48,496 bases of DNA from Hysterium pulicare CBS 123377 (Eukaryota > Ascomycota > Dothideomycetes > Hysteriales > Hysteriaceae), in contig AJFK01000975.1 in the NCBI GenBank assembly GCA_000467715.1, positions 1-48,496 of the forward strand, written 5' to 3'. Of the stretch, positions 5,205 to 41,301 are shown one piece after another; the stretch's first letter is position 1, and every line of letters begins with the position of its first letter. The notes beneath the pieces were generated by a model, which saw nothing but the letters and a program-made list of their open reading frames with translations, was not told the origin of the DNA and made no database searches. Both the position numbers and the translations under genes were made by a program.

Positions 5205-5893
5205 CTATCCCACACCATCTTCCTTTTCAACCGTGATTCGTTCGTCTGATCCATGAAAAGCTACTTGAAGTTTGGTGGATGCCGGCTGTGAGATCAACTG
5301 TCGCTTCCAAGACGCAATCGCGGAAGACGTGATGGGTAGATCTTCTAGGAATCGAAGGGTTGACTGTACGTAAAGGAGTTCACGAGTGTCCGAGGGAAGG
5401 TCATTACTATCACGCCATTCCCCAACGTCCAAAAGAAGGGCGGATCCGTAACTAATCCAACAGTGATCCTGCTCTTCTCGGCCTCGAAGGAACGGGTTCA
5501 GATGCTCTTGGAAGATCTTTTCATGGGAATATGCACATGCAAAACAGGAGTTCTGGCAATAAGCTTTTACTATCGCCATTTCATCCTGTTCGAGGTCTCG
5601 ATCAAGATCCCGGTCAAGATCCCGGTCAAGATCCCTATTGGAAGAGAACTCTTCAAAATACGATTCGGCTAAGCAGTGATATAATTGAGTGATTACCAGG
5701 CCCAAATTGGGATGCTGTTGTAAAGTGCACAGTTTTCGAAGAACCTGGAATTTGTGCGGAGTCTCTCTGGTCATATAGTTCACCATGTCGTGCCCACTCG
5801 TTGTGCAGTAAATATATCGTTAATAGGCAGGTGTAAGAGGATTTGCTCTCGTAATTCGGTGGTAGCAAAAACACGATCTACCGCGGTAGTCAT
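5205..5893 (-). pseudogene. F-box protein paralogue, frameshifted (copy 1 of 5)
   Basis: Starts at ATG 5893 with the family N-terminus (MTTAVDRVFATTELREQILL) and F-box core ending AQRV-TTW. The zero frame then hits TGA at 5780-5782. The next reading frame, open from 5786 to 5205, continues with homologous sequence: the LRKLCTLQ segment, the Cys/His module C-x2-C-x3-H-x6-H-L-N-P and a degenerate ISQPAST motif matching TxPACRT of the intact copies. One missing base near 5783 explains the break, by true mutation or assembly error. It also contains an in-frame 12-bp tandem repeat (gatcccggtcaa, about 5599-5635) encoding repeated DLDR units. If functional, it would be an SCF substrate receptor binding Skp1 through the F-box; the substrate is unknown. 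Confidence 0.7.
5599..5635 (-). repeat. 12-bp in-frame tandem repeat (DLDR units)
   Basis: About three copies of gatcccggtcaa inside the frameshifted F-box gene, encoding DLDRDLDRDLDRDLE. The other paralogues lack it, so it is a recent local expansion. Confidence 0.8.
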
Positions 5894-6520
5894 GGTAGGT
5901 ATGTGTTCCACAGAGTGGGGTAGTGGACAATGGTGTTGCAAAGTCAAGCTGTAGGAAGAGTTGTACAAGATCTCGGAGTTGGTGATTATATGATGGGGCT
6001 CCAGAAATAATGCCTTTACTTCACTGTGGTCATTTGGGGGTTGCAATACTATGATTTAGTAGTACTTCACGTAGTAAGACTGCGCATGTTAATCACAAAA
6101 GCAAGACATTGGGGTTCCAAACTCAAAGGTGGAGCAACCACACCATTCAACAAAATAGCAGTTATTCGGATGTTTCATAAGTTTCATTGGTTAAATGAAT
6201 AACAAATACAGTTTGAGCTACCAAAGTAGCCCTGCCGCTGTCAAGTAAAGTACAAATTTCTTTACAGCTGGTTAATTTGAATCTGCTTCCCTCCTTAGCA
6301 TCTTCCTCAGAGAGAGACAAAAGTAAGAGCTGCAGCTGTAGTGGCGTCAAACTAGAAGGAACCTGAATATTTCTCAGATTTCTGTTATTATTGCTGAATT
6401 GCATTTAGGTAAGAAATTAACAGGAAATGCAATTTCAGCTTTCGTAAGCAGTAATCGTTTCGTGAGGCCGCTTTCAAAACCCGGTGTAAGGATTAGAGCC
6501 GAGAGACTATATGAATGGAT
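5894..6520. other. Intergenic; nothing recognised
   Basis: Spacer between F-box copies 1 and 2. The open stretch at 6162-6404 on the minus strand is leucine-rich by composition (repeated CAG/CTG-like codons) and has no family resemblance. Confidence 0.5.
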
Positions 6521-7506
6521 CTAGATCCCTTTTTTATTTTGGATCCTATATCCTGTGGAGATTTTGTGAGCATGTTGCTTTTGAGACACTGGAAACGCCC
6601 GCACTGGTAACTTACTGTCTGGCTGCGCTAGGAGAGACTGTAATCGCGCCTGTAATCCAATAGTAATAGTGTTGTGATTCGGACCCAGGCGGGATTCGTT
6701 TGCGAAAATGGGGTCATTTGAATAACCATCGAGGATAGCGCGACACAATAGGCCAAGAGCCTCTGGCAAATCTCCAGCCCGCATTCCTTCCTCTCTGTAA
6801 ACTTCGATCAAGAAATCAGTATTATGGTCAAAGAAAGCCCCAAATGTCTTGCATACAGGCTGAGTAATTTGCAGTCCACGCCAAGACGCTTTGCTTCCGA
6901 AGTTAGCGGCGATGAATTCGAGAAAGTTGATCAGCATTTCGACGTGTCTGATGGCACTGGAGTATTCAAAATCCCGCATTATCTCCAGTGTGATATGAGA
7001 TCCATGTCCGGCGGCCCAGCAATGTCGAAACGGTATGATAAGGTTGAGGAATGGGTGCAAGTGATCTACCAGAAAAACATCGTGTAGCCGGTTGCATCCC
7101 GCACAACCGTTCTGCCTTGCTTTTGTAAAAGTCATATCCCAATGCAGCCCAAGCTCAAAGAAATACTGGCTGTTCAAAATCCATAGAGCTCTACGAAACT
7201 CTCTGTAGGTGAGCTACTTGCCCTCAATGCTCGCAGCTCCTTGTAGGTATTCGGATTACCCTCCTTCCAGAACAGCTGAAAGTTCATAGTAGGGCCATGA
7301 CGAACAATGTAATGGGGATCATCAAGTGTAGTATCGATTGGAAGGAGCCAGCATTGACGTTTGAGCAAAACGGAGCCGAGAATGCAGTCACGCCAGCTTT
7401 TGCTCACGCGCCGAGCATTGTAAATAATGTCCGAAAATACGAGGTTCGAAAGGATTTGTTCTAGAACTTCGGCGATGTCTAATGCTTGGTGGTGTACGGT
7501 AGTCAT
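6521..7506 (-). pseudogene. F-box protein paralogue, frameshifted (copy 2 of 5)
   Basis: ATG at 7506 starts MTTVHHQALDIAEVLEQIL followed by F-box core RRVSKSWRDC. The zero frame ends at TGA 7174-7176; the -1 frame, open down to 6521, continues with the family body. It has the Cys/His module CAGC-x3-H-x6-HLHP, then CW and GHGSH, and ITQPVCKTF. One base is missing somewhere around 7175-7200, for example one T in GGATTTTGAAC, to restore agreement with intact copies. No GT-AG intron of plausible size and phase bridges the break. The C-terminus runs about 30 residues past the family end. Probably a dead or mis-assembled copy of an SCF receptor. Confidence 0.7.
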
Positions 7507-8097
7507 GTTGAGTGAGAGGCACTGTTGTGCTCGAATTGGTTGAATCCTTCCGAGGAAAATTCCTGAGCTTAAACCTTTCAATGGGATAGCGCGTTGCAAA
7601 GCCGGTTTAAAGTTATTACCAAATTCGGAAGAAAGCAGTGAAATGCGGGCACTGGTAACTTCGAGTACATTCTTGATCTTATCGATCTACTGCTCAATCG
7701 TCGCAACGCAATCATCAAGGCTCATTGGATGGACAGTTATTCTTGATTGACGGGTCTGTAATCTGTTCATTAAGGTATTCAATAGATGCAAATGGCCGGC
7801 CGTTAAGCTGGGAGTCGCGGCCTCTTATACGAAATGGGGCTGGCCCAACCAGCGGTAGGGAGGGCTTCAAAGTCTCGGAGCTGAAGTCGGCTGATGCTGG
7901 AGCAACCTTACCTAATCTCAAATTAGATGACGGCACTGTATTCTGCGCACACGACATGTGCTGAAGGTCCGCTCGGCTCCTATTCTAATCTCATACCAAG
8001 CGATATTTCTCGATGCATTCACTACACAGGCGATTTTATGTCTGGAGAGCGTTTTCAACATAAGAAAAATGGTGGTGAGTTCCTAGAGTGAGCTTCT
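7507..8097. other. Intergenic; nothing recognised
   Basis: The open stretches on both strands around 7715-7964 mirror each other and show no motif. This is probably the upstream region of F-box copy 2 plus the 3' flank of the NmrA-like gene. Confidence 0.45.
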
Positions 8098-10932: not shown

Positions 10933-13397
10933 TGCTCGCTCCGATTGACTGCACTGATTGATGCACTTGAGAGGGGTGGTCAAGCGTCTTGCTTACAATC
11001 TCCATACGGCGGGCCGATTATTCTAGCGAGTTCGGGTCGGATCAAAGAAAACCAAAAGTTAATGCTTTTTATTTTTTTTAATCTCTTAATATTTTAGTAT
11101 TATGTATTTCTAAAGTATTTCTCTTCTTTCTTTCGTCACGTCTTGACCACGTTTCTTGCTTTACTTAAAGCTGGTATTAGACAGAATATCTGGGACAATA
11201 TACAGCTTTATGTATTACAGAAAGATAACATGGAAAGTTACAGGTCATCGCTTCTATGCATACACGCAGTCGGCTAATTTTAATTCTCACAGAGAGACAA
11301 GTTGCATTAGGCCGCATTATTTCTTGAATCTGAAGTTATATCTGCCTACCATAAACTAACGCAATGGTCACGTTGAGACAGAATTATTCTAGTAGCATCA
11401 TCATGGAATAGTTTTAATCAGACGTTATACTACTTGTTTCGTCTGGAGAGAATAACGATCATCGCGGTATTCAAAGCAACGACCAAAATCGAGCCTCAAC
11501 GACATCCCCATAGAAGTCCACCGGCTGAGCGCAGACGTTATGTTTTCTGTTGAGGTGCAAGCTAGTCCTAGAAACCTGAGCAACCGTTATGTCATGACAC
11601 TGGAAAGGAAGCATATTACTGAAAGCAACAATTGCAAAGCCGTAGAGTTTAGTGAAATTGAGGTGACTAGAATTAAGCGTCATTGTGTTGAGTATATATT
11701 AGAGTGGTTATAAGCAGCAAAAAAAGGTCCTACGTAAGTAGAACGAAAGGTCAGTTTTGAGGTTTTGCAAACTAAAGTTTGTGTTAGTACTGTCACTGTG
11801 TGCACTTATTATTCTTTTAAAAGTCCAACTTTTCAAACCTGCCCGCAAAATTTGTACTCCTGCCCCATCGCACCTTAAGTAATAATGTTGAACTTATTTC
11901 TTTATCATTTCTTACCCGAGTCATATGATGGAAGGGTAGTGGTCGATGTACCGAGCCAACTGCGGTGCAACCCTCTAAGTATTATCTATAGGAGTAACTT
12001 GCCAGATACATTAAGATAAGGATTACAATTAGGCACTTTAGTACTTTAAAATGCTTTTAATATCTCTCTACAAGTTTAAATATATAAAATTCTATACTCT
12101 AATCTAATTGCAAGCAATTATCTCTTTTATTCTTAAAACTAAATATATTTCTCTAGTTTAAAGAAAGATAAAATACTTATATTCTAAACTTTATATACTT
12201 ACTATATTGCGTATATTCTAGTAGGTAATTCTAATCTAGTTACTATATTTTGTTATAATATACCTATATAGCTTGCGTTCTATTCTAATTACCTACTTTT
12301 ATACTATATATACAATAATATAACCTTTTAAGTAACTTAAAACTACTAGTATAGAAAACTTTAAAACTAAATTATCTAAGACTAATAGTACTATATAACC
12401 TATACTTTTAGCTAGAAAGTTTAAAAAGTATAATTAAAAACGTTTTCTATAAGGCTTGCGTTGTTAAATATTAGTAAAAGCTAAGCTTTTACTTAAAATA
12501 CTTTCTTTTCCTCTTCTATATATAACTTAATAGTAGTCTAGCTCTTATAGAAAGTTAGTATAGCTATTATTTAGTAGTAAATTATTATAGAAAAGTTATA
12601 CCTAATTAACTTATTATATTATTTAGCTACTAGCTTACTTTAAAACTAATAGACTCTTTAAAAGTTAAAATACGCAACTAGCTTTATTTTTTAGTTCTTA
12701 TCTTATAACTATTTTCTTTAAATAAAGTTATATAAATATATAAGAAATAAAAGTTAGCGTATTTTTCTTAATAATCTATGTAATAGAATATACTACCTAG
12801 CAACTCTAGTAGAAAGTTAGCCTTTAAAGCTAACTTTGGAACTATAAATGTTTACATGCTCTATTCTCCGCTAATCTGTTTTAGTGAGAGCTATAGCGCT
12901 TAGTTGTGTTAGTATAGAGTTGTCGCATGTTATAAATGAGAGCTTTGACAATAATTAATGCTAACGCGTGGTTGAACTTTACCAAACTCTTCCTCGCCGT
13001 CGCACGATAAAAAGATATAGAAGCTGAATAATTAACACTCGTTCAAATAAAATCTGAGATGTTATTCGACGAGGACTATTCGAATGCACGCGAAAGCACG
13101 ATTTGAGCCCCGTTCCTTCCAATTGATAGTTAGATTCCCTAGACACTTCATGAGAAGGGTACGATTATCATTGTATCGAGCAACCTCATGATCAATTGAG
13201 TGGGCGATTGTAGAAGCTTTTTACTTCGGTGTCCGCTACAATCGAAACAAAGCAGAGAAATGGATGGTGTAGGGAAGTGCTTTAAAACAGCAGAATCCAA
13301 ACGAATCCCGGTAGAGTTAATTATCTGTTTGGTAACATGTACGAGCTGTGCCCTATAACGTATTCTGTTCCTCGCATAGCTAAAACGTCGCACTCTT
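10933..13397. other. Gene-poor region with AT-rich core
   Basis: 2.4 kb without a supported gene. 10933-11979 is moderately AT-rich with no coding signal; 12841-13397 is ordinary noncoding DNA leading to the xylanase 3' end. The centre is the RIP-like block listed separately. Confidence 0.6.
11980..12840. repeat. RIP-like AT-rich island
   Basis: About 860 bp of A/T-dominated sequence very rich in TA dinucleotides, with short G/C islets such as aagttag and ctagct repeated in altered forms. This is the usual look of a transposon degraded by RIP; no coding frame or terminal repeats survive, so the original element cannot be named. Confidence 0.65.
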
Positions 13398-14141
13398 CTA
13401 GCTCAAGGTAATACTGGAGGATCCGCTGCTATAATTTTTGCCGCTAGCATATCCCTCAGTTGCAAGTATCATGTAGTCTTGATTTCCCAACTTCAGTCCG
13501 ACTTTAGCCCATTCGCTAAAGTGTCTTCCCGTGGTAATAGTGCCACCAACCCGCGTTTCAGTACGGACGGACCAGTACTGATAAAAGGTGCTTGTGCCCA
13601 CGATAGAAGGCTTGTTAACACGTTGGCTTTGGTACAGCAGATACGTGCCCTCGTCGGAGGTAAAGTTTCCTTTGGGTGTCCATGGCTCGCCGGGACTGAG
13701 GTCGCCATGAGAGTCAACGATGTAGTATTCGATGAGAGGGTTCTTAGTCCAGCCGTATACCGAGAGATAGCCGGGGCCGGTGGGAGTGTATGTTCCACTA
13801 TATTTAACCGCCCTATTGTGAAATACTTGTTAACAGCAGCCCACTTGTGATGGTAACAATAGTGTTGTCTCTGCAAAGTCAACTGACCTGGACCCTCCTG
13901 GGCTCCATCCCTTTCCGCACACAAAGCCTCCTGGACCAGACCAACTAACACTATAGGACCCTCCCCCACCGTTGTTACATTTCACGTTACCGTTACCCTC
14001 GCTCCAAGAGGAAAAGTAGTAACCCTGCCGACGTTCGAGGTCTGCGGAGGTTGGAGAACCGAGACGCTCGAAAAGCTGTCCAGGGGCAGTGAATGCTCCT
14101 GGAACTAGGGAGATGACTGCAAGAAATTTGAAAGAGACCAT
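13398..14141 (-). CDS. Endo-1,4-beta-xylanase, glycoside hydrolase family 11 (222 aa)
   Basis: Two exons, 13888-14141 and 13398-13812, separated by a 75-bp intron (donor GTCAGT, acceptor ATAG); total 669 nt, 223 codons. Residues 1-19 are a signal peptide and LERRQ suggests a Kex2-like propeptide cut. The mature part is a complete GH11 jelly roll: [28 protein letters not shown] with nucleophile Glu113, QYWSVR, and MILATEGY with acid/base Glu204. Length is typical of catalytic-domain-only enzymes, with no carbohydrate-binding module. It would be secreted to hydrolyse xylan in plant cell walls. It stands alone beside an AT-rich desert. An upstream GGCTAA on the coding strand (14378-14383) could bind an XlnR/Xyr1-type activator. 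Confidence 0.93.
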
Positions 14142-16583: not shown

Positions 16584-17444
16584 TTAGGATAATGATTGCA
16601 GTAGCTCTTCTAGCTCATGCTCTTCCGGACGAAGATATTCCCAACGTGCCCATAAAAACCGTCCATGAACCATTCGGGCAATGGTCTTGATCAGCTCTAT
16701 CGAATCTTTTGGTGTCACACCCGCGAGGTCGGGATCCTCGCGCTTGATGCTCACGCTACTGGAGTAGAAAGGGTAGAAATATTCTTCACTATCTCGTATT
16801 GAGACTTCGAATGTGCGACAAGCCGGGCGAGTGATCGATGACGGTTCCCAAAAAGATGCAACAGATTTGTTGACGGCGACTAGAGAGACCACTTTCTTCA
16901 AAATAGCGATAAGGGCCGGAATATATGAGTGGTGGAGCCCTAGCGAGCCTATTTGGAGGATAACGTGATTTCCGTACCCAGAGAAACAACAGCTGTCTTC
17001 AAGCTCGCGTAGAAAAGGATGGAGGTGCTCTAATCTGAGTCGGTTGTGCACATACTGACAATTGGGGCATTTGAAGACTTCGTAGTGACGCTCGAGGTAT
17101 GGAGAGTGAGTGCGGTAGAGTTTGTCGAGCTCGTAACGAAACCAGAAGGAAGAAATCTCGCCAGATAACAGCCGCCTGCCCAGATCATGGAAAGCTGGAC
17201 TTAATGAGGAATCTACCTGATCAAGCTGATGGAACTCCAAGAAGAGAGGTTTAGAACCATCATCTTTCAGGTTGTTAGGAAGCAGCCAGAAGCGCCGTTG
17301 GAGTTGAACCGAGCCTTCGAAACATGCCTTCCAGGACTTGCAAACTCGTTGAGCATTGGAAAGGACGTCGGAATAATTGAGAGCCAGTAGAATTTGCTCT
17401 AGAAGCTCGACTGTGCCGAAGACTTGAGAAGCTGACGAAGCCAT
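16584..17444 (-). CDS. F-box protein with Cys/His module, intact (copy 3 of 5; 286 aa)
   Basis: Start chosen at ATG 17444 (MASSASQVFGTVELLEQIL) because it aligns with the starts of the other copies; the frame is open for 45 more codons upstream. F-box at about residues 5-45 (ELLEQILLALNYSDVLSNAQ, then RVCKSWK). Next comes a variable linker, then the module C-x2-C-x3-H-x6-H-L-H-P, CC and GYGNH (CPNCQYVH...EHLHP), then ITRPACRTFEV and a C-terminal helix ending LLQSLS. No frameshift or stop. By family logic it is a Skp1-binding SCF substrate receptor; the C-terminal module may bind zinc or substrate, which is inference. About 110-160 bp upstream lies a block repeated at 41964-42013. Confidence 0.8.
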   Translation of the reverse strand: MASSASQVFGTVELLEQILLALNYSDVLSNAQRVCKSWKACFEGSVQLQRRFWLLPNNLKDDGSKPLFLEFHQLDQVDSSLSPAFHDLGRRLLSGEISSFWFRYELDKLYRTHSPYLERHYEVFKCPNCQYVHNRLRLEHLHPFLRELEDSCCFSGYGNHVILQIGSLGLHHSYIPALIAILKKVVSLVAVNKSVASFWEPSSITRPACRTFEVSIRDSEEYFYPFYSSSVSIKREDPDLAGVTPKDSIELIKTIARMVHGRFLWARWEYLRPEEHELEELLQSLS

Positions 17445-17553
17445 AAAATGTAAGAACGGGAAGTTGGCTAGTCCAGTAAAGTGCTGTAGTCGTTGTGTTG
17501 AGCGTGGATTAAATGGAAAAGGAATAGGCTGGTAAAATAGGAAAACCTCTCGG

Positions 17554-17604
17554 TGAAGAAAGGGTTTGGTAAGGCTCAATCACGCGTAGTCGGTGATTAT
17601 ATTT
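17554..17604. repeat. Upstream block shared with 41964-42013
   Basis: About 50 bp, from tgaagaa through the core cacgcgta to gattatattt, in the promoter region of F-box copy 3. It is roughly 80% identical by eye to the orphan block at 41964-42013, in the same orientation. Confidence 0.65.
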
Positions 17605-18673
17605 GATATGGTTGATTTCATTGGATGATGTAACAATGAATCTCTGATGAACGAAACATTGTTTAGTGCCAATGAAAATCAGCTGACCCAAAATACTAGA
17701 TCTCAAAGTCACTTCGCAGACCTACATACATATCAGCTTTGGTGAATCAGTGCTAATGATGCCCGCCGAATTGATAGGCAAAGTAACGGCCCAGAAACCA
17801 AGGTGACTATCGACCATCAAGACATGAAAGCAATTCCAGCCATTATTTCCAGTCCTGAATACCCTTCATTCAGCATTGAAGGGAGCAGCGGGTGACAAGC
17901 AGGCTGCGGCTAGTATTACCAGTAAAATGGCGAAGAATAATCAGAATAATAAACGGAAACAGCACGCATCTAGTCGCGCTCATTAACAATAGTCGAGTCA
18001 AAGGCAGCGATAGGAGTGAGGAGGAAGGAAATAAAAAGAATGCCCTTTGACCCATTCGGGATCACCAAATATCGCATAAACACTCTACTTTCATTATGCG
18101 ACTACAATGCATCAACCAGCAAAGAAGCACAAAGCTGCTAAAAGAATAAATACATCGGGTGTTATTATTCGTCACACTGTGAACTCCGTTGGCTATACAA
18201 GTCTGGAAAGATGTTATTCTTTAAGCTGCTTTCGAGGTTAAATCGGCTGTGTAGGCTGATGGTATAGAGAGGAGTAAGCACAGGCTCACTCTCCTAAAAC
18301 GACGAATTATGATACTCCGGGTGGATAGTGTCTGAATTGAGGAGGTATGCAGGAGGGCGGTTTCAACTAGGTTAGGGTTATACTCTGAACCCTTACCAAA
18401 AATGCACTACTAATTTCACACATGCATTTTTTCGAGTATAGCAACATTGAAGTAATCATTAGTGGTCAAGTACTTGAGTAAATAATTATCCCTTTCCCGC
18501 CGATGCGGATGCAAATTTGGCAGCAGGCTCGATTTGAAGGGCAAGGATCCTGTTGGGTCTTTGCTAGAACTAGTCAAATTGCTTAGAGCTTCTCCAGTAG
18601 TTTCCTCCACCTTCCCGATTTTCCAGTAGATGCATAAAAGCTCCACCGGAAGCTACTACTGCCGAGCAGAGAA
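17605..18673. other. Intergenic; nothing recognised
   Basis: Promoter side of F-box copy 3 and 3' flank of copy 4. Short minus-strand open stretches (17870-18055, 18416-18646) show no motif. Confidence 0.5.
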
Positions 18674-19636
18674 TCAAGAGAGCGCACCAAACTCGGCCTC
18701 CCACTCCTTCAACATCCCCTGAAAGACATATCTCCCCTCTCTCTTACCAAGCCACGGCATCGGATTCTCGTCCCTTCTCCTCTTGAGGAATACCCCCACA
18801 GCCTCTGTAGCCAAATCCGCGAAATCCCGAAGAGTAAGGCCCCCAGAACTACCCTCCGGCACGCTGATTTTGCGTCTAATCGGACCAGGCCCCGAGTCTG
18901 AAAGTTGGATTTCGAAAGTACGGCAGGCGGGATGCGTAAGCATAGAGCGTGTCCAGGATGAATGCTGTTGTTCTCCAGTCTGTAGTTTCGAAAAGAAAAT
19001 CAGTATCGTTGTGAGTGCTTTGATGCTATTGAACGTTAGAGGACGCCAGATAGTATCTTGAATGTAGAGGACCAAGTGGTCGCCGTAACCAATCATGCAA
19101 CAAGCCCCCAGGAAAGTCATTTCATCCAGAGGCTGAAGCATGGGATGGATATCCTCCCATTTGAAGCGGTTGTGAGGCGTGAAGCAGTATTGGCAAGAGA
19201 GGCTTCGAACAGCCGGTGGCAATTCCGTGCATATGTCCGCCCAGCTTGTGGCCGTGCTGGGTTCGGGGGTGAGAATGCGCTTGAAAAGCTGCCACGTCAT
19301 GTCCGCGAATACGTATGGAGTCAACGAGCCTGTAGTATAAAGCCGCCTCAGTTCCGCAAACGAGTGTTGATTGGAGTCCGATTCAGGGCAGTGGCCAGCC
19401 CCGCATTGAAGAGAGTCGGGCTTAGAGACGAAGTGGGGATCTGGGTTCTCTTTACTTATTGGAATCGCTTGAAGCCAGCAGAGCTCTTGAAGGCGTTTTG
19501 ACCCATCAATGCAATTTTTCCAACTCTTACACACGGCTTCTGCGTTGCAGAGGAGATCAACGAAGTCAAGGCTGGAGAGAACTTCTTCAAGCAATTCGGT
19601 GACCCCAAAGACCCGATGGGCGACGGTTGTTGTCAT
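18674..19636 (-). CDS. F-box protein with Cys/His module, intact (copy 4 of 5; 320 aa)
   Basis: Single exon from ATG 19636 (MTTTVAHRVFGVTELLEEVL). F-box at residues about 8-50 (LEEVLSSLDFVDLLCNAEAV, then CKSWKNC). The linker holds SFAELRRLYTTGSLTPYVF, the segment around which copy 2 breaks. The Cys/His module is C-x2-C-x3-H-x6-D-I-H-P followed by CC and GYGDH, then LTHPACRTFEIQ and a Gly-rich turn before the final helix. This is the best reference for the family here because it has no frameshift or alternative start. Putative SCF ubiquitin-ligase substrate adaptor; target unknown. Confidence 0.82.
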   Translation of the reverse strand: MTTTVAHRVFGVTELLEEVLSSLDFVDLLCNAEAVCKSWKNCIDGSKRLQELCWLQAIPISKENPDPHFVSKPDSLQCGAGHCPESDSNQHSFAELRRLYTTGSLTPYVFADMTWQLFKRILTPEPSTATSWADICTELPPAVRSLSCQYCFTPHNRFKWEDIHPMLQPLDEMTFLGACCMIGYGDHLVLYIQDTIWRPLTFNSIKALTTILIFFSKLQTGEQQHSSWTRSMLTHPACRTFEIQLSDSGPGPIRRKISVPEGSSGGLTLRDFADLATEAVGVFLKRRRDENPMPWLGKREGRYVFQGMLKEWEAEFGALS

Positions 19637-20305
19637 GATGGGGTTGCGCGCGGGAAGAGTTTATAGTTTGGTTTGGTACGAGGTTGATGAGGTGGGTTGC
19701 GTAGATTTCCAGACTTGAGGTTTTGTGAGGACTTGGAACAAACATGTAAGAGATGCTAAAAGGCAATGAGGAGTGAGTTAGTGACAGCGCGGGGCGACGC
19801 GACTCGACTGGATCTGGATTCGCTCACTTACGCTCTCAATGAAGTGATTTCAATAGGAATCCCGTGTCACTGGAGTCATGAAGCTAATTCTCTTCACGTA
19901 CACTCAAGGTGAACTGACATGGTAATCTCACAATGATTGCTCGATACCAATGCCTGGGAAAGAGGGTTAGCAGAAGAGGGAGGAACGAGGTTTATTAAAT
20001 TTGTGTCGTCGCACTAGAGAGTTATACGATGAAAGACTACCGACAATGAAGGGTCTTAGGGAAGATAAGTTATGTATGTTTGTCTACCCATGCTTATGAC
20101 AAGAGTTTAGATCGTTGTAATTTCACCCCTCCGCGACAAACATCATCCATTCCAATTTAGGAACACTGCATAGTATCAGTATCGAGAATGCATTATTTCG
20201 TTATGTAGTTGAGTCAAGAGCATGTTAGATACAAAGCAGTCCCTATTAACCTTACCTATGAGTTTAAGTTCTGGACATCGAGCTACACAACCGGAGGCAG
20301 CGCAG
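19637..20305. other. Intergenic; nothing recognised
   Basis: Promoter of F-box copy 4 and 3' flank of copy 5. No gene or repeat is supported. Confidence 0.5.
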
Positions 20306-21291
20306 TCAGCCTAATTCTCGATACTGTGCACGCCACCTGCTCGCCGTTCTGGTAACGCCCCAATTTTTTACCTCAGGTTTATGCGATATGATGGACTGTA
20401 GATTGTTCTCGCTGCCCGTAATGTGAAGACCAATTGCATCCTTCAACACCTTCATGAAGTCTCGAACGACCAAACCTGCAGAATTGTCATCGCATTTGAT
20501 TTGGCTCTTGTAGGTCTCCGATACAACCAGAACCGTTAACGTGCGACATGCAGGTTGCGTGATAAGTCCCTGTTCACTGGATTGTGCTATTGCTGTACTC
20601 ATTTCCCACGAATGAAGACGCTCCAGCAAGATGTCGATGGTCGGAAATTTGCTCCTGTGAGGGTGGCACTTCGTCAGGTTCAAATAAGATGGTCGCCGTA
20701 CCCAGTGATGCAGCAGTTACGTTCGGAGACTGCATCCATAACGGCTCGTACGCGTGGGTGCATATGTTTCCAGTTGAATTGGTCGTGTCCAATCAAGGTA
20801 CTTTCGCGCCCGCGGTCGCAGCATGGAACACAATAATACTGCTTCAGTGGATCTGGGAGTTGTTCGGCCCTGATGCTTTGAGTACCACCTCCGAGACCAT
20901 GGTTGTAGACCACGCGAACAAATCGGTACTCAATTAAGCAATCGAAATCATACTTCGTAATGATTCCGGATGCGAAGAGCTTTCGAAGTTGAACAAAGGC
21001 GTCTTGATCGATTTGGAATCCCGAGAGACTTGCGGAGGAAGCGAGGTTAGGGTCCATATCCGAGCCAGAGGCAGGTACTGGCAGAAGTCGAAAGTGTGGA
21101 TCTGGATCATCCCCCTCCTCGACATCACGGAGCCAACATTGCCGTTGAAGAGTAAGAGACCTATTGATACAACCCTTCCAAAAGCTGTTGATGCGCTGGG
21201 CGTTAAAGAGGATATCCGAGTAAGAGAGATTGCTCAAGATCTGCTCAAGCAGCTCGGTCACCCCGAGGGCTTGCTCAGCTGCGGTGGTCAT
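20306..21291 (-). pseudogene. F-box protein paralogue, frameshifted (copy 5 of 5)
   Basis: ATG 21291 starts MTTAAEQALGVTELLEQIL; F-box core is followed by QRINSFWKGC. The Cys/His module is complete but carries an 8-residue insertion (C-x2-C-x11-H-x6-H-M-H-P), then CC and GYGDHLI, where the zero frame hits TGA at 20680-20682. The -1 frame continues from there to 20306 with LNLTKCHPH, ITQPACRTLTV and a typical C-terminus. One missing base in the run CTTATTTGAACC would restore the frame, giving GDHLILNL, which aligns with GDHLVLYI in copy 4 and GNHVILQI in copy 3. The rest is well preserved, so the break is recent or an assembly error. Confidence 0.75.
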
Positions 21292-22439
21292 GATGCGGAG
21301 ACTCCGAGTGCTTGTCGATGTGGTTTGGGGGGTTCCGAAGAAGGCGGAGGTGTAGCCGTAATTAAAAGGCTTTCAGAATTTGAAATTGATAAAGAGAGGC
21401 CCACCGACTTGCGGGCTGGGTGGCTGTGCGCGGCTGTTGAGTGATTCTGTTCACTAACCGTGAATGAAGTAGTAATACCTCGCTCGCATTTTTAGGCGAC
21501 TTTATTCACATTTCCGAATAACTTCAACATTAATCTTCCGGTCTCCATGTTCCATACGGCGCCTCGTATGCCCGCTCGAGCAGACTACTGGTATGCGGTC
21601 TCGATCTTTTCAATGCAAACTAGATGAACTGACATAAGGGGAGCTGACGGAACCGGAGCTGGCGTAAACAGAGCAAAAACGACACAGTGCCGATGAACAT
21701 CGCCTGTTCGATTTTGACGCGGTTTGGGCAGCGCAAGTCGCCCATTGCTTGTTAACGAGCGGAGCATGTGCGATGGATGAAGAGGTTGGAGAAGCCAGGG
21801 CGAGAGAGGATCGTGTTCGAGGTCCGACGAGGTCGAGCTACACCGCACTCATTGTCTCTTATGTGGAGAGTACATCCATATCAAAGAGCACATCTTGGTG
21901 TAAGCTTTCTGACGTGGGTACGGCTGCCCAGGTGGCCTTACGATCGAGTTGACGCGTTGGCGCTGCTACGGTGTGATTGGCCAAAATAAGCGCCTTTCGC
22001 GAGGGACTTTTTGACATCCCGAGCCCAAGTGTCGTCAAAAAGGTATGTGGAAGAAGCCATAGAGAGGCATCAACTTACCGTTCCATCGACTCCTACGTCC
22101 TTGGTTTCACAATTCCAGAGTACCGAGGAGGTTTCAATGTCATTAATTCCATTCCATTCAACTACCTACTAATGCTATCTAGGGAAACCCGTCCGTCGGA
22201 AGCAAAAGACCCCAACCAAACGTTCATCTCATGCATAGAAAAAGAGCAAACTAACATGAAGGGGAATATCCGTTTTTTGGGCCTAAAGTACAAGCACCTG
22301 ACCTTGTCCGCCATCGTTCCTCCAAAACCCACACAAGTTCATTCATTATGATGTCGTTATGCATTCAAGGCCTCGCGTTCGAAAGGCCAATGACTACTAC
22401 CTCGAGATCATTCCATGTCAAGAGACACTATGCTCACCT
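21292..22439. other. Intergenic; nothing recognised
   Basis: About 1.1 kb between F-box copy 5 and the convergent-facing Ish1-like gene. Open stretches at 21585-21989 overlap on both strands with no motif. Confidence 0.5.
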
Positions 22440-36677: not shown

Positions 36678-37868
36678 ATGACTCGGATTATGCATACGGC
36701 ACACATGTCGATTGCAGGGTGGCCTTATGTCATACCGTCACCACCGAAGCCGCTATACTTGTCTTTGCAGATGACGAGGTCCATGGTTCAAACCTCAGGA
36801 GTGAGGAAGTAGGTATCCATATCTACCATTCAAAACATCAACTAAAGAGTCAGGCGCAAAACAAAGTCGAAGTCCCAGCAGTGGTCGCGATCGAAAGGCA
36901 ACAAGAAGCAAGCTCCAACCGCAAGTGTGCAGTATGTACATCTTTATCCGCTAACATCGTAGCGGGATCACTTATGACACTCCAGACCAAAACCTCAGAA
37001 AGGCCACTTCCTATTCCTCAACCTCCCTCGCGAGCTTCGAGACTTGGTATACGAATACGTTGTTGGAAAGAACCGCAATGCCACCAAACTCACATTCCCA
37101 CGCAACTCTGACCCGGAAGAATCTGATTCTGATATGAAAGAGTATGAGGAGCCTGAGGAAGAGCCCACCGTACCTCCAGGGTTCATTGCAAGTAAGACGT
37201 CTCAGGGTTGGCAGTTTGTAGAGAGTGCCACTGGCGACACCAACTGGTATCCAGTTACAAACACACGAATTTTCAGGATCAACCACCAAATCAGCCAAGA
37301 GGCCACGCATATACTTTACCAACAGAATACGTTCTACGTCACACTCGACTGGCACACAACAATACTTGCGAAATGTCCCCCATACCCCATTTACAATTCC
37401 AGCAAGTGGGCTATTCCTTCTATGTGGGATCTATCCAACATCGCGAACTTGTGGATTCGTATCAATCTTGGTGAACAACCCGAATGGACCCCAATGGCAG
37501 AGATGGGATGGTCCGGTTTCTACCAGATGAAAAGTCTTAGATCTTTGCAAGTATTCATCACAGTGGGTAATTATAACAGAGCTCGTCCACAAGGCATCAC
37601 GAAAATAGATTTTATACCTGGATGGGATCCATACCCTCAGAATCCCCCGGAGTATCGACTCCTGATGAGGAACCTCATTGCATCTGTTCCTAAGTCTGCC
37701 GGGGCAATCAAGTTTGGTCTTGATTCTGAGAACAATGCGAAGTATTGGGTGCCCAAGAAGGAGCAAACTTGGGTGGGTGTTGTTGACAAGGAGGTGCTCC
37801 AGCGTACTGCTTCTGAGTTTGAGGCCCTTCGCGGAAGCGACGCGGAATATGCTCGAAGCTTGGAGTGA
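36678..37868 (+). CDS. 2EXR-domain protein with H3-tail-related leader exon (363 aa)
   Basis: Three exons: 36678-36808, 36854-36931 and 36986-37868. Introns are 45 bp (donor GTAGGT, acceptor TCAG) and 54 bp (donor GTATGT, branch GCTAAC, acceptor CCAG); 1092 nt, 364 codons. Exon 1 (MTRIMHTAHMSIAGW, then IPSPPKPLYL and MVQ) aligns with exon 1 of the 39957 locus, whose start is plainly H3-tail-like; here the resemblance is degenerate (M-x-R, TA, S, G). Exon 2 is 78 nt and basic (KRKTKSKSQQWSRSKG). Exon 3 holds the 2EXR signature FLFLNLPRELRDLVYEYVVG, an acidic insertion (DPEESDSDMKEYEEPEEEP), IFRINHQISQEATHILY and the family C-terminus ending LRGSDAEYARSLE. All splice phases agree. Probably nuclear; biochemical role unknown. 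Confidence 0.75.
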
Positions 37869-38326: not shown

Positions 38327-38590
38327 ATGGCGAGAACTGGCCAGACGTCTCGATTCTCCACTACCGGGAAGGTGCCTCGCGGACGACTTGCTTCAAAGGG
38401 GTTCGCGCAGCTGGTTGTTCACGACCAAAGCCGCATCCAAAATATCTACCCTTCCCTAGTGTCCAGGGATCGTGAGTTGTGGAAGGAGGTCCTTGGTCGG
38501 AGTGGGCTCGTGTTAATGGAAGATTTTAGCCTTTCCAACATGTCATTCTTTAAGAGAATTATCTTCAGCATGCACTACATAACAATGTAA
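38327..38590 (+). CDS. ORF with histone-H3-tail-like N-terminus (87 aa), possibly truncated
   Basis: ATG 38327 opens MARTGQTSRFSTTGK, then VPRGRLASK. Against the canonical H3 tail this is about 17 of the first 24 residues identical. In H3 numbering K4 is Gly, K9 is Phe and K18 is Gly, while R2, R8, S10, K14, R17 and K23 are kept. Resemblance stops after residue 24: the rest (AQLVVHDQSRIQNIYPSL, then RDRELWKEVLGRS) has no histone fold. The ORF ends at the edge of an AT-rich region, so a downstream part may have been lost; a possible donor (GTAAGA) lies at the very end. It lies between two 2EXR genes with related leaders. Confidence 0.6.
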   Translation: MARTGQTSRFSTTGKVPRGRLASKGFAQLVVHDQSRIQNIYPSLVSRDRELWKEVLGRSGLVLMEDFSLSNMSFFKRIIFSMHYITM

Positions 38591-39956
38591 GAAATATAAT
38601 ATTTGATCTAGAGCAATTCTAGACAAATAGAAGTATTATAATAATTTACACTAGTAAAATTTATATTACTTCTCTGGTGCTAATAAAACTTAGTAGGCTC
38701 TAATTTACATATATAGTCCTGTTTTAAAAACATTTATATAGTTTTGGAAATTTGTAATTAGTCTAGACTTCGTTAATATAAAAATTTACTAGAGAGCGAG
38801 GAGATTAGGTGTTCGTCAATCTAGATTAGTAGATCTTTCTGCCTCGACATCCGTACCAAAAATAAAACAAGGCAACCCCGCTCGATTTGCTTAACAGTTG
38901 CACTATTCAGCCTACCGTAGAGTTTATACCACATAGCTGAGCCGTATGCTTGTAGAAGAAAAAGTCCGCCCAATAGATTTCGGCTAGATGAACCTGTCGA
39001 AAATAGACTCTAGTATAGCCTTGCTACCGCTCGCGAACAATGACATTTACCGAGACAATTTGGCGACTAGATGTCAACTAAGAAATCTCTCAGCCTCCGA
39101 GCCTCTCTACGCTGCATGATATTTTACCCAATCCATAGAATGTTAAACAATCTCAAGCCAAGGAAGATTTCCCATCGTTCGAGATAGATTAGTTTAAGAC
39201 AGGATGATGAATACACCCGAAAAGGGCAGATCGAAGGGAGTGACAAAAGTGTTCGCACCCTCCCCGCCAAACTATTAAACTTAACCTTAAATTAAACCTA
39301 TTTTCGAACTATAAATTCTTGGTTTATTCATATAAAAGGTATATTTTAAGATAGATATACTTCTAGGGTTTATTTCGTGTTATTCTGATTTTTAGTTTTA
39401 ATGACTATTATTATGTAACCCAGCTACTAAAAAGCTTAGAATAGTTTTAGAACACGTTTGTCACCTGTGGATGCACATTAATTGGATGTGTGCATGTTGC
39501 TTGTAAATCTAATCCGAACTTTACACATGCGTAGCACTGGAGTTGATAGAGGTATCTACACTTTAGAGTTATAAATAATGCCTTTCGCAATTATTTGTCA
39601 AATATATAGGGGTATAAATTTCAAGCTTCAATATCATGTGCACGTCTCCGCCAGTAATTTAGAACCGATATTCTATACCCGCATCCCGTTCATTCATGGA
39701 ATAACGAAACATGCCCACGACCACAAATATTCAAATCCGCAAAATGAGGCCATCGGTGAATGAAGCAGCGGCCGATTGGCCCGTATGCTACTCAATCAGT
39801 TCGCCTAAGCTTAGTTGCGACTCACGGCAAACCGATATAAAAGCATTCGGCCTCCACTTGCCGTGACCGAGCCGAAAACACCACATCTCCCAACACCACT
39901 GTTGTCGTGTAGTAGTTCGTTTACACGAAATCGTGAAACAAAGCGACAGCCTCGTC
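38591..39956. repeat. AT-rich, partly RIP-like region
   Basis: Two clearly AT-rich blocks (about 38591-38800 and 39270-39430) flank moderately AT-rich DNA with no coding signal. It probably contains remnants of an inserted element. The last 120 bp is the promoter of the H3-tail-like/2EXR locus, with a TATAAAAG box at about 39836-39843. Confidence 0.55.
39836..39843 (+). promoter_or_regulatory. TATA box of the H3-tail-like gene
   Basis: TATAAAAG lies 121 bp upstream of ATG 39957, followed by a C/A-rich leader. It is the best TATA match seen in this part of the window. Confidence 0.5.
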
Positions 39957-41301
39957 ATGGCTCGAACTATCCAGACCGCACCAAGATCCGCCGGAGGAAA
40001 AGCACCGCGCAAACAACTCGGCGCGATGAGTGCCGCACCGTGTAGACCACTTGCTGCGATGGGTCTACCGCGGCGACAACTTGCCTCGAGTAGTGCAATC
40101 CCACCGCAGCCACCACCAATATACCTACCTTTCGCAGGGCCACAGCTGGCAATAGTTCAAAAGTGAGTTTTACACCTGGGCTATTAGTTCTTTTCTAACA
40201 GGTGCAGACCAAAGCGAAAAGCAAAATCGATTGCTCAGAGGTGGACTAGAAATAAGAGAGGACGATTGGCCAAGAAATTGTAAGCATACTATCGCTTAGT
40301 CCCTTCCCTGTGTATATCAACGCTCATCAAGCCGTAGACAAATGTCCATGGCAGTTACTGTTGAAATCTAGAAGGCTGGAAGGCCCTGAAGGAGGCTGGT
40401 AGATTTCGCTCCATTAGCTATATAACTAGGTAGCCCTCCAGGCATAGATAGTTAAGTAATCTGAACTCTTTTTCACCAGATTTCAACAGTTACAGAGGAG
40501 ACTGCAATCGTGCGCGAAGTAACCGAGCAACAGCCATTCCGGTTTCTCGTTTTGCCCCGCGAGATTCGCGATATGGTATACGAGTACGTTGTGGGAAAAC
40601 ATCGCGATGCGGCCACGACAATCTTCAATGGAAATAGGATTTCTGACATTCAAGAGAGCACTCATCATACTCGAATCAGTGGGCGTCGCCTCACGTACAC
40701 GAGGATCTTCGGCATCAACCAGCAGATATCTAATGAAGCCAAAGACATGCTTTACAGTCACAACATGTTCTTTGTGACTTTGAGACTGGGCATGATGAAA
40801 TTCGTGGTGCCGCAAAACATATACTTTGAGAGCCCCATCCCCCTAGGGTGGGATCTTTCCAGAATCCGCAAACTTTGCATTCGAATTGACTTGGATCTGG
40901 GGGACGATGTCCGCAATTTGATGGCAGGTTGCTTGTGGTCTGCGCTGTATGAGATGAATAGTCTCAAGTCCTTACAATTCTTCATCACATGGCAGGCTTT
41001 TGACAACAACTGGGCTACACCCGATCCGTCCAGCATTACGACCAGAAACTTCGTCTTGGGAGAAGGTCAATATCCCCGCAATCCTCCAGAGTACCAAGTT
41101 ATGATGAAGAACTTAATTGCAGCTATCCCCAAGTCAGTCGGAAACATTACCTTTGGTATCACTCCCAGCGATGCAAACTTGTTCCTAGAGTTCTACGAAC
41201 ACATGGAGACTGCCGTGGCAGACAAGAGTGTTCTCGAACGCACTTACAAGGAGTTTGAAGGCCTCCGGGGGACTGATGCGGAGTATGCCAACAGCATCTG
41301 A
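39957..41301 (+). CDS. H3-tail-like leader plus 2EXR domain; reading frame broken between them
   Basis: Exon 1 (39957-40162) encodes MARTIQTAPRSAGG, then KAPRKQL, about 17 of 21 residues identical to the H3 tail, then a decayed stretch and IPPQPPPIYLPF. Intron 1 (40163-40201, or to 40207) has donor GTGAGT. Exon 2 (40202-40279, 78 nt) is basic (KCRPKRKAKSIAQRWTRNKR) and matches the 36678 gene in length and sequence. Donor GTAAGC at 40280 ends in phase 2. The 2EXR part (open from 40465; QPFRFLVLPREIRDMVYEYV, then IFGINQQISNEAKDMLY, to stop 41299-41301) needs a one-base join that no visible AG acceptor supplies. A MITE at 40358-40489 occupies the intron. If intron 2 is not spliced, a 95-residue basic H3-tail-like protein results (stop 40281). 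Either a pseudogene or two separate products. Confidence 0.6.
40358..40489. mobile_element. 132-bp MITE, Tourist/PIF-Harbinger-like
   Basis: Perfect 12-bp terminal inverted repeats, CTGTTGAAATCT at 40358-40369 and AGATTTCAACAG at 40478-40489, flanked by TTA at 40355-40357 and 40490-40492. A three-base TTA/TAA target duplication is typical of PIF-Harbinger elements and their non-autonomous Tourist MITEs. The interior has no ORF. It lies in the presumed intron between the H3-tail-like exons and the 2EXR exon. Removing element plus one TTA gives ggcagTTAcagagg, a plausible original intron end. Confidence 0.75.

Follow-up and report, generated by a model that had tools for sequence, protein, structure and literature searches.

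The window analysed here, contig AJFK01000975.1 (C560) of Hysterium pulicare CBS 123377 at its whole length of 48,496 nucleotides, belongs to a genome assembly of 37.2 Mb in 596 contigs and carries three related genes or gene remnants, named A, C and B in their order along one strand, between 36.7 and 41.3 kb (Table 1). Two of them, B and C, open exactly at the initiator methionine with a sequence closely resembling the N-terminal tail of histone H3. The original prediction had described these starts as two neighbouring open reading frames with an H3-tail-like beginning and without a histone fold. Both frames exist, but the description was incomplete: B appears to be the first exon of a three-exon gene for a DUF7730 protein, interrupted by a miniature inverted-repeat transposable element (MITE), and C is a frameshifted remnant. 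The DUF7730 exons of B, the upstream paralogue A with its mostly lost tail and the damage to B and C had been overlooked.

Table 1. Features of the A-C-B cluster in window coordinates (RIP, repeat-induced point mutation)
Feature	Position	Strand	Description
Gene A, whole	36678-37868	+	three exons, frame open throughout
Gene A, exon 1	36678-36808	+	MTRIMHTAHMSIAGWP..., H3-like start degenerate (6/14); linker motif PPKPLYLSL; GTAGGT donor, phase 2
Gene A, exon 2	36854-36931	+	basic segment RKTKSKSQQWSRSKGNKKQ
Gene A, exon 3	36986-37868	+	DUF7730 domain (3.8e-8), open to stop
Gene C, remnant	38327-38471	+	tail 38327-38398; PKPHPKYLPF at 38425-38454 in +1 frame; GTGAGT donor at 38472; frameshifted
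AT-rich RIP-like stretch	38580-39440		35% GC; RIP-like composite index +0.38 (window -0.37); expected site of gene C exons 2-3
Gene B, exon 1	39957-40162	+	H3-like tail; Pro-rich linker PQPPPIYLPF; GTGAGT donor at 40163, phase 2
Gene B, exon 2	40208-40279	+	basic segment PKRKAKSIAQRWTRNKRGRLAKK; alternative acceptor gives exon from 40202; GTAAGC donor at 40280
Gene B, exon 3	40338-41301	+	start inferred from splice phase; MITE inside; DUF7730 from about 40537 (1.7e-6)
MITE, 132 bases	40358-40489		inverted ends CTGTTGAAATCT/AGATTTCAACAG, TTA on both flanks

Read from the window DNA, gene B opens at ATG 39957 with MARTIQTAPRSAGGKAPRKQLGAM and gene C at ATG 38327 with MARTGQTSRFSTTGKVPRGRLASK, in agreement with the earlier description of both peptides. 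By eye, the tail of B shares 17 of 21 residues with H3, as previously counted, and 18 of 26 over its best-scoring prefix (39957-40034); for C the count is 16 of 24, not 17 of 24. Every ATG of the window (n = 1,651) was scored by ungapped BLOSUM62 comparison with H3 anchored at Met, which gave 85 for B and 73 for C against 26 for the third-ranked start. Among 8,474,383 random ATGs of order-2 Markov DNA the highest score was 48, and the number of such starts expected per genome, extrapolated from the fitted score tail, is 2e-7 for B and 1.7e-5 for C, so that the earlier statement that chance is very unlikely holds. The weaker genome-wide test without the Met anchor returned E values of 0.004 (B) and 0.16 (C) with residues 1-60 of H3 as query, and of 0.02 (B) and 0.48 (C) with full-length H3. 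The window is not significantly enriched in a 20-base codon pattern for MARTxQT with two mismatches allowed (2 sites, 1.02 expected, and at least 2 in 27 of 100 shuffles), and both B and C fit it with zero mismatches. Genome-wide, the exact pattern occurs at 5 sites, two of which are chance-like, against 1 for the reversed control, and with one mismatch at 21 sites against 5. Contigs being cited by our own numbers, five of these 21 were already known (C444, C478, C23 and window B and C), seven were inspected (C4, C94:11350, C526, C543, C347, C381 and C591) and nine were not; C486 of the exact set was inspected as well. Among the inspected sites, C526 is the start of a VWA gene, C4 scores 40 (10/25) and the others score at most 29 among the best 30 rows of the H3-start comparison, in which scores of C381 and C591 do not appear.

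A search of the Protein Data Bank (PDB) with B returned H3-type chains or peptides in all of the best 60 of 129 rows (best 7e-6), and the best 60 of 127 rows for C were likewise all of H3 type (best 2.6e-4). The rows listed for the two queries include Cse4 and H3-CENP-A chimaeras, the match beginning at query residue 1 or 2 in the H3 register, and those listed for B include the K4M peptides 5h6q and 5x60 (SRTMQTARKSTGG...). Residues A1, R2, T3, Q5, T6, S10, G13, K14, P16, R17 and L20 are retained in both B and C. Position 4 is Ile in B and Gly in C and position 9 is Arg or Phe, and therefore neither K4 nor K9 methylation would be possible on the tail. As the original prediction held, neither sequence continues into the H3 core: no histone fold core was found in B or C, their H3 matches ending at H3 residue 32 and 25, respectively. 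Pfam gave no match for the exon-1 frames of either.

With the exon borders predicted here, the reading frame of B would be exon 1 of a longer gene consisting of a tail resembling H3 residues 1-23, Pro-rich linker, basic exon and DUF7730 exon. Its exon plan, intron phases and basic exon are common to A and B; the introns of A measure 45 and 54 bases, both in phase 2, and the first intron of B measures 45 bases, with CTAAC near its 3' end. The two basic exons match at 60% over 15 amino acids (E 0.04, translated comparison). The Pfam family DUF7730 was recognized in both genes (33.3 bits in A and 27.9 in B, curated cut-off 27), whereas 2EXR stayed below its cut-off of 24.8 in the A and B exons (15.4 and 14.6). 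Exon 3 of A and B shares 122 of 257 aligned residues, and its differences fall 98/87/159 by codon position, which indicates that both evolved as coding sequence. The start of A ranks fourth among the window ATGs with a score of 25, weak taken alone. In C, the GTGAGT donor is in phase 2 solely in the +1 frame, PKPHPKYLPF shares 7 of 10 residues with the linker of B (E 0.03), and translated comparison found no exons 2-3 downstream of the tail.

Among 94 loci collected for DUF7730 and 2EXR, a partial set with many overlapping and many not DUF7730, cut with flanks of at most 1.5 kb for 30 of 132 and 30 of 48 matches, no H3-like start scored above 30 except B and C themselves, C478 (60), the H3 start on C444 (48), C4 (40), the H3 variant on C565 (40) and C526 (37). 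A weak match to exons 1-2 of B was noticed at C429:5262-5462 (E 0.01, three internal stops), possibly a remnant; the same contig also has a SWIRM locus.

The cluster is evidently decaying. A query of 40350-40500 gave nine further matches in the genome at 81-100%, of which the longer copies at C414, C156, C373, C94 and C464 (81-95%) span most of the query and the other four are shorter. The aligned longer copies have common ends and unrelated flanks, and therefore this multi-copy element was classified as a MITE; its three-base duplication suggests a PIF/Harbinger-like origin. The MITE supplies an in-frame TAG at 40369-40371, ahead of DUF7730, so the message of B, spliced as drawn, would end after 103 residues comprising tail, linker and basic exon. 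At its right end stands a CACCAG that resembles an acceptor and keeps the phase of DUF7730, and the element may be bypassed by means of a weak donor and this acceptor. Next to C, the AT-rich RIP-like stretch has no second copy that could be found in the genome. Thus B retains tail and basic exon severed from the domain, C retains the tail only, and A retains the domain only, its tail nearly erased. Elsewhere in the window, another AT-rich block (12001-14000, 35.5% GC) has a strong RIP-like index of +0.78, and on the minus strand 5205-7686 and 16584-21372 contain several related F-box-like reading frames with GVTELLEQILSNL-type starts, by eye an apparent local family.

The only canonical H3 start found in the genome lies at C444:1-74, severed by the contig end, and reads MARTKQTA followed by C|GTAAGT, in which GTAAGT is presumably an intron donor preceded by 8 codons plus a single base; frames adjoining it resemble histone H4 by eye. 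Both B and C read through at this point, with no intron there. Over the first 8 codons, few as they are, H3 and B differ 0/1/7 by codon position (7 residues and 1 codon identical), and H3 and C differ 3/1/7 (6 residues and 1 codon identical). A full-length H3 search of the genome, considering the best candidates only, pointed to six places: two exons on C565, C478, C526, B and C. Besides the gene on C565 to which these two exons belong, and which we name CENP-A/H3-variant-like, the search found no copies of the H3 core, although heavily mutated ones could escape it, and it did not find the canonical H3 core in the assembly. Since only best candidates were considered and the canonical core itself is missing, the absence from the genome of H3-core copies of the kind captured by hAT transposons is likely, not proven. 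No second DNA copy of B exon 1 was found in the genome.

These results bear on the origin of the tail. The possibility, raised against the original prediction by its own author, that both segments are debris of the genome's H3 gene was not borne out: with no H3 core attached and with differences from H3 that are mostly silent over eight codons, they are not recent H3 debris; among the best candidates, the genome search gave no H3-core copy apart from the C565 gene, and B exon 1 is unrepeated. The proposal that exon 1 of the genome's own H3 gene had been captured was rejected as unlikely in that form, since B and C continue without a break where the presumed H3 intron falls, after 8 codons. As the source of the tail, a retrocopy of H3 lacking introns, or convergence, agrees better with the sequence.

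Other carriers of an H3-like tail were found in this genome and beyond. A gene at C478:43956-44078 on the minus strand begins with the best H3-tail match of the genome outside histones (E 4.3e-6), with K4 and K9 present and unrelated sequence following; a search with its partly guessed gene model found no non-histone relative, the only, weak match being a histone-fold protein (E 0.68). At C526:57900-60350 a VWA protein contains an H3 segment, KAPRKQLASKAARKSAPS, near its C-terminus, and an ATG 2.3 kb upstream of it reads MARTKQPARGYSAPHICGCYF (MARTKQPARG), which by eye agrees with the beginning of another VWA protein, P0019. When the H3 region of the C526 protein was used as query, 45 proteins were retrieved at E <= 10, many at E 0.01-10, yet with the H3 segment plain in their sequences. 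By a simple string test 13 of them have H3-core strings and 32 do not, and it is among these 32 that non-histone fungal proteins with the same tail, which the original prediction had proposed to look for, are present. Three of the 32 begin with MARTKQTAR (P0027, P0031 and P0036); Pfam assigns VIT and VWA domains to P0027 and P0036, and a VWA_3 domain was precomputed for 10 of the 45. Compared with the C526 protein, VIT-VWA proteins of several Ascomycota have longer H3 segments. A start of the MASSGSVFSxTLQ type was seen by eye in twelve matches, of which P0006 and P0041 are labelled reverse transcriptase in a source; Pfam found nothing in P0012 and P0015, the two proteins of this type that were submitted to it. 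P0006, P0012, P0013, P0015, P0016, P0017 and P0041 are fungal-type proteins of 689-994 residues with a MASSGSVFSxTLQ-like start and an internal, closely H3-like segment. Judged by these matches, the H3 tail turns up repeatedly in fungal proteins of unrelated kinds (VIT-VWA, reverse-transcriptase-like, several Ascomycota), a recurrence that bears on mimicry in general and does not demonstrate descent of B and C from those proteins. A literature search, which touched VWA/VIT and DUF7730 little and missed most subscription papers and preprints, found no reports of H3-tail fusions in fungal proteins.

The fungal VIT-VWA and reverse-transcriptase-like proteins are like B and C in having an H3 tail without H3-core strings; they differ in their unrelated domains and in their segments, which are mostly internal and usually keep K9, K14, K18, K23 and K27. 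A closer parallel is offered by the SNAG domains of animal proteins such as Snail and GFI1, where a short H3-tail-like peptide with a residue other than Lys at position 4 stands at the extreme N-terminus of a non-histone protein. The rule for SNAG-type sequences is an N-terminal position, a small residue and Arg after Met, and no Lys at position 4, and both B (MARTI..) and C (MARTG..) conform to it. In SNAG proteins the likeness to H3 is confined to a few residues, with zinc fingers next in the chain, whereas here it extends over 24-26 residues, with DUF7730 after it in the predicted plan of B. According to the available text of PMC12612597, the SNAG domain acts as a mimic of the H3 tail and brings in LSD1, and docking on LSD1 could be supposed here by analogy. 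In this genome four SWIRM loci were found; SWIRM occurs in LSD1 and also in other chromatin proteins. WIZ and other targets of EHMT (G9a/GLP) likewise have H3K9-like mimic motifs in non-histone proteins (PMC10611923, available part), but these motifs surround a methylated Lys and B and C lack K9.

Taken together, mimicry is the part of the original interpretation that is best supported, by a resemblance beyond chance, by the mostly silent differences from H3 over eight codons and by the existence of other carriers, while its captured-exon part is not. We tentatively regard B and C, with a confidence just short of even, as decaying relics of an H3-tail mimic, a SNAG-like pseudo-substrate for an H3-tail enzyme or reader. 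The ancestral protein would have been nuclear, as its basic exon suggests, and removal of Met would expose A1-R2-T3-x4-Q5-T6 as in H3. Much as SNAG domains of animals bind to LSD1, the exposed end could then occupy its partner as a pseudo-substrate or decoy, and the tail would recruit or block a putative H3-tail enzyme or reader on behalf of the DUF7730 module. What is left of that function today would be a cluster in decay.

Several observations weigh against this explanation. In no copy are an intact tail and an intact DUF7730 frame clearly united, and for that reason present function is doubtful. Linker and exon 2 are similar over short stretches only (E 0.03-0.04), and a protein search found no relative with both tail and DUF7730, its two distant hits (P0001 and P0002) being tail-less. 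A structural model of the B DUF7730 exon built from 7 sequences was poor (mean pLDDT, the predicted local distance difference test, 60.6), and a PDB search with it was empty at E <= 0.001. Moreover, B is without R8 and K4, and C without K4, A7 and K9, losses that would weaken many readers. Over 24 codons B and C differ 8/9/13 by codon position, with 12 residues the same; because this silent bias is weak, the comparison does not support constraint on the tail since the two split.

The weak bias between B and C is also among the points in favour of a rival explanation, that the cluster is dead, functionless now or lately, and that its tail came from fusion with an H3 retrocopy, e.g., one spread by hAT elements, followed by drift. 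The MITE stop in B, the frameshift in C, the eroded tail in A and the RIP-like DNA adjoining C agree with it, and hAT elements have captured intronless H3 in Dothideomycetes (PMC6710886 and PMC3538342, in the text available), just as B and C are intronless where the genome's H3 start has its presumed intron. However, most of the differences from H3 over the eight codons that can be aligned are silent, no H3-core copies besides the CENP-A/H3-variant-like gene were detected within the limits given above, and B exon 1 is unrepeated as DNA. The published hAT captures, as far as the available text of PMC6710886 goes, match mostly H3 exon 3 (94%) and not the tail. The captured H3 of Pyrenophora, Pseudocercospora and relatives (H3L) resembles the present case as intronless H3-derived sequence in fungal genomes, but it has the H3 core and many copies in a transposon, whereas here there is a tail only, in an exon context; multiple copies of the H3 core inside a transposon, the mark of hAT-type transduplication, were not found among the best candidates of the genome searches. 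This explanation we consider unlikely, though the strongest of the alternatives.

Less probable still is that the H3-like segment was a nuclear import signal or a basic DNA-binding stretch only and no ligand of an H3 reader or enzyme. The H3 nuclear import signal is read by Kap123 (PMC5677370, available part), and exon 2 is basic as well, but the feature retained in the tail is not charge, K4 and K9 being lost while the shared residues listed above stay, and a basic cluster is already supplied by exon 2. Chance resemblance can find some comfort in the modest unanchored E values and in a short codon pattern that is not rare with 2 mismatches; it is nevertheless practically negligible and was rejected, given two matches 1.6 kb apart, both at Met, with scores far above the maximum of the random ATGs, and a linker and donor shared by B and C.

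Known cases of histone mimicry come chiefly from proteins of animals and from pathogens that act upon their hosts. A broader and rather speculative proposal, less probable in our judgement than the relic of a mimic proposed for B and C, is that in filamentous Ascomycota the H3 tail has become a module employed again and again on proteins of unrelated kinds (the VIT-VWA, reverse-transcriptase-like and DUF7730 proteins and that of C478), sometimes exactly N-terminal, as a docking site or decoy for H3 enzymes; B and C would then represent a non-methylatable form (K4 to I or G, K9 to R or F), akin to K-to-M/I inhibitory histones. If this is true, H3-like tails joined to other domains in fungi would mean that these organisms have repeatedly imitated their own histone tails, and K4I, K4G, K9R and K9F would be natural variants for testing the tolerance of H3 readers and enzymes. 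Antibodies and mass spectrometry directed at H3 tail marks in fungi may, by the same token, detect non-histone proteins.

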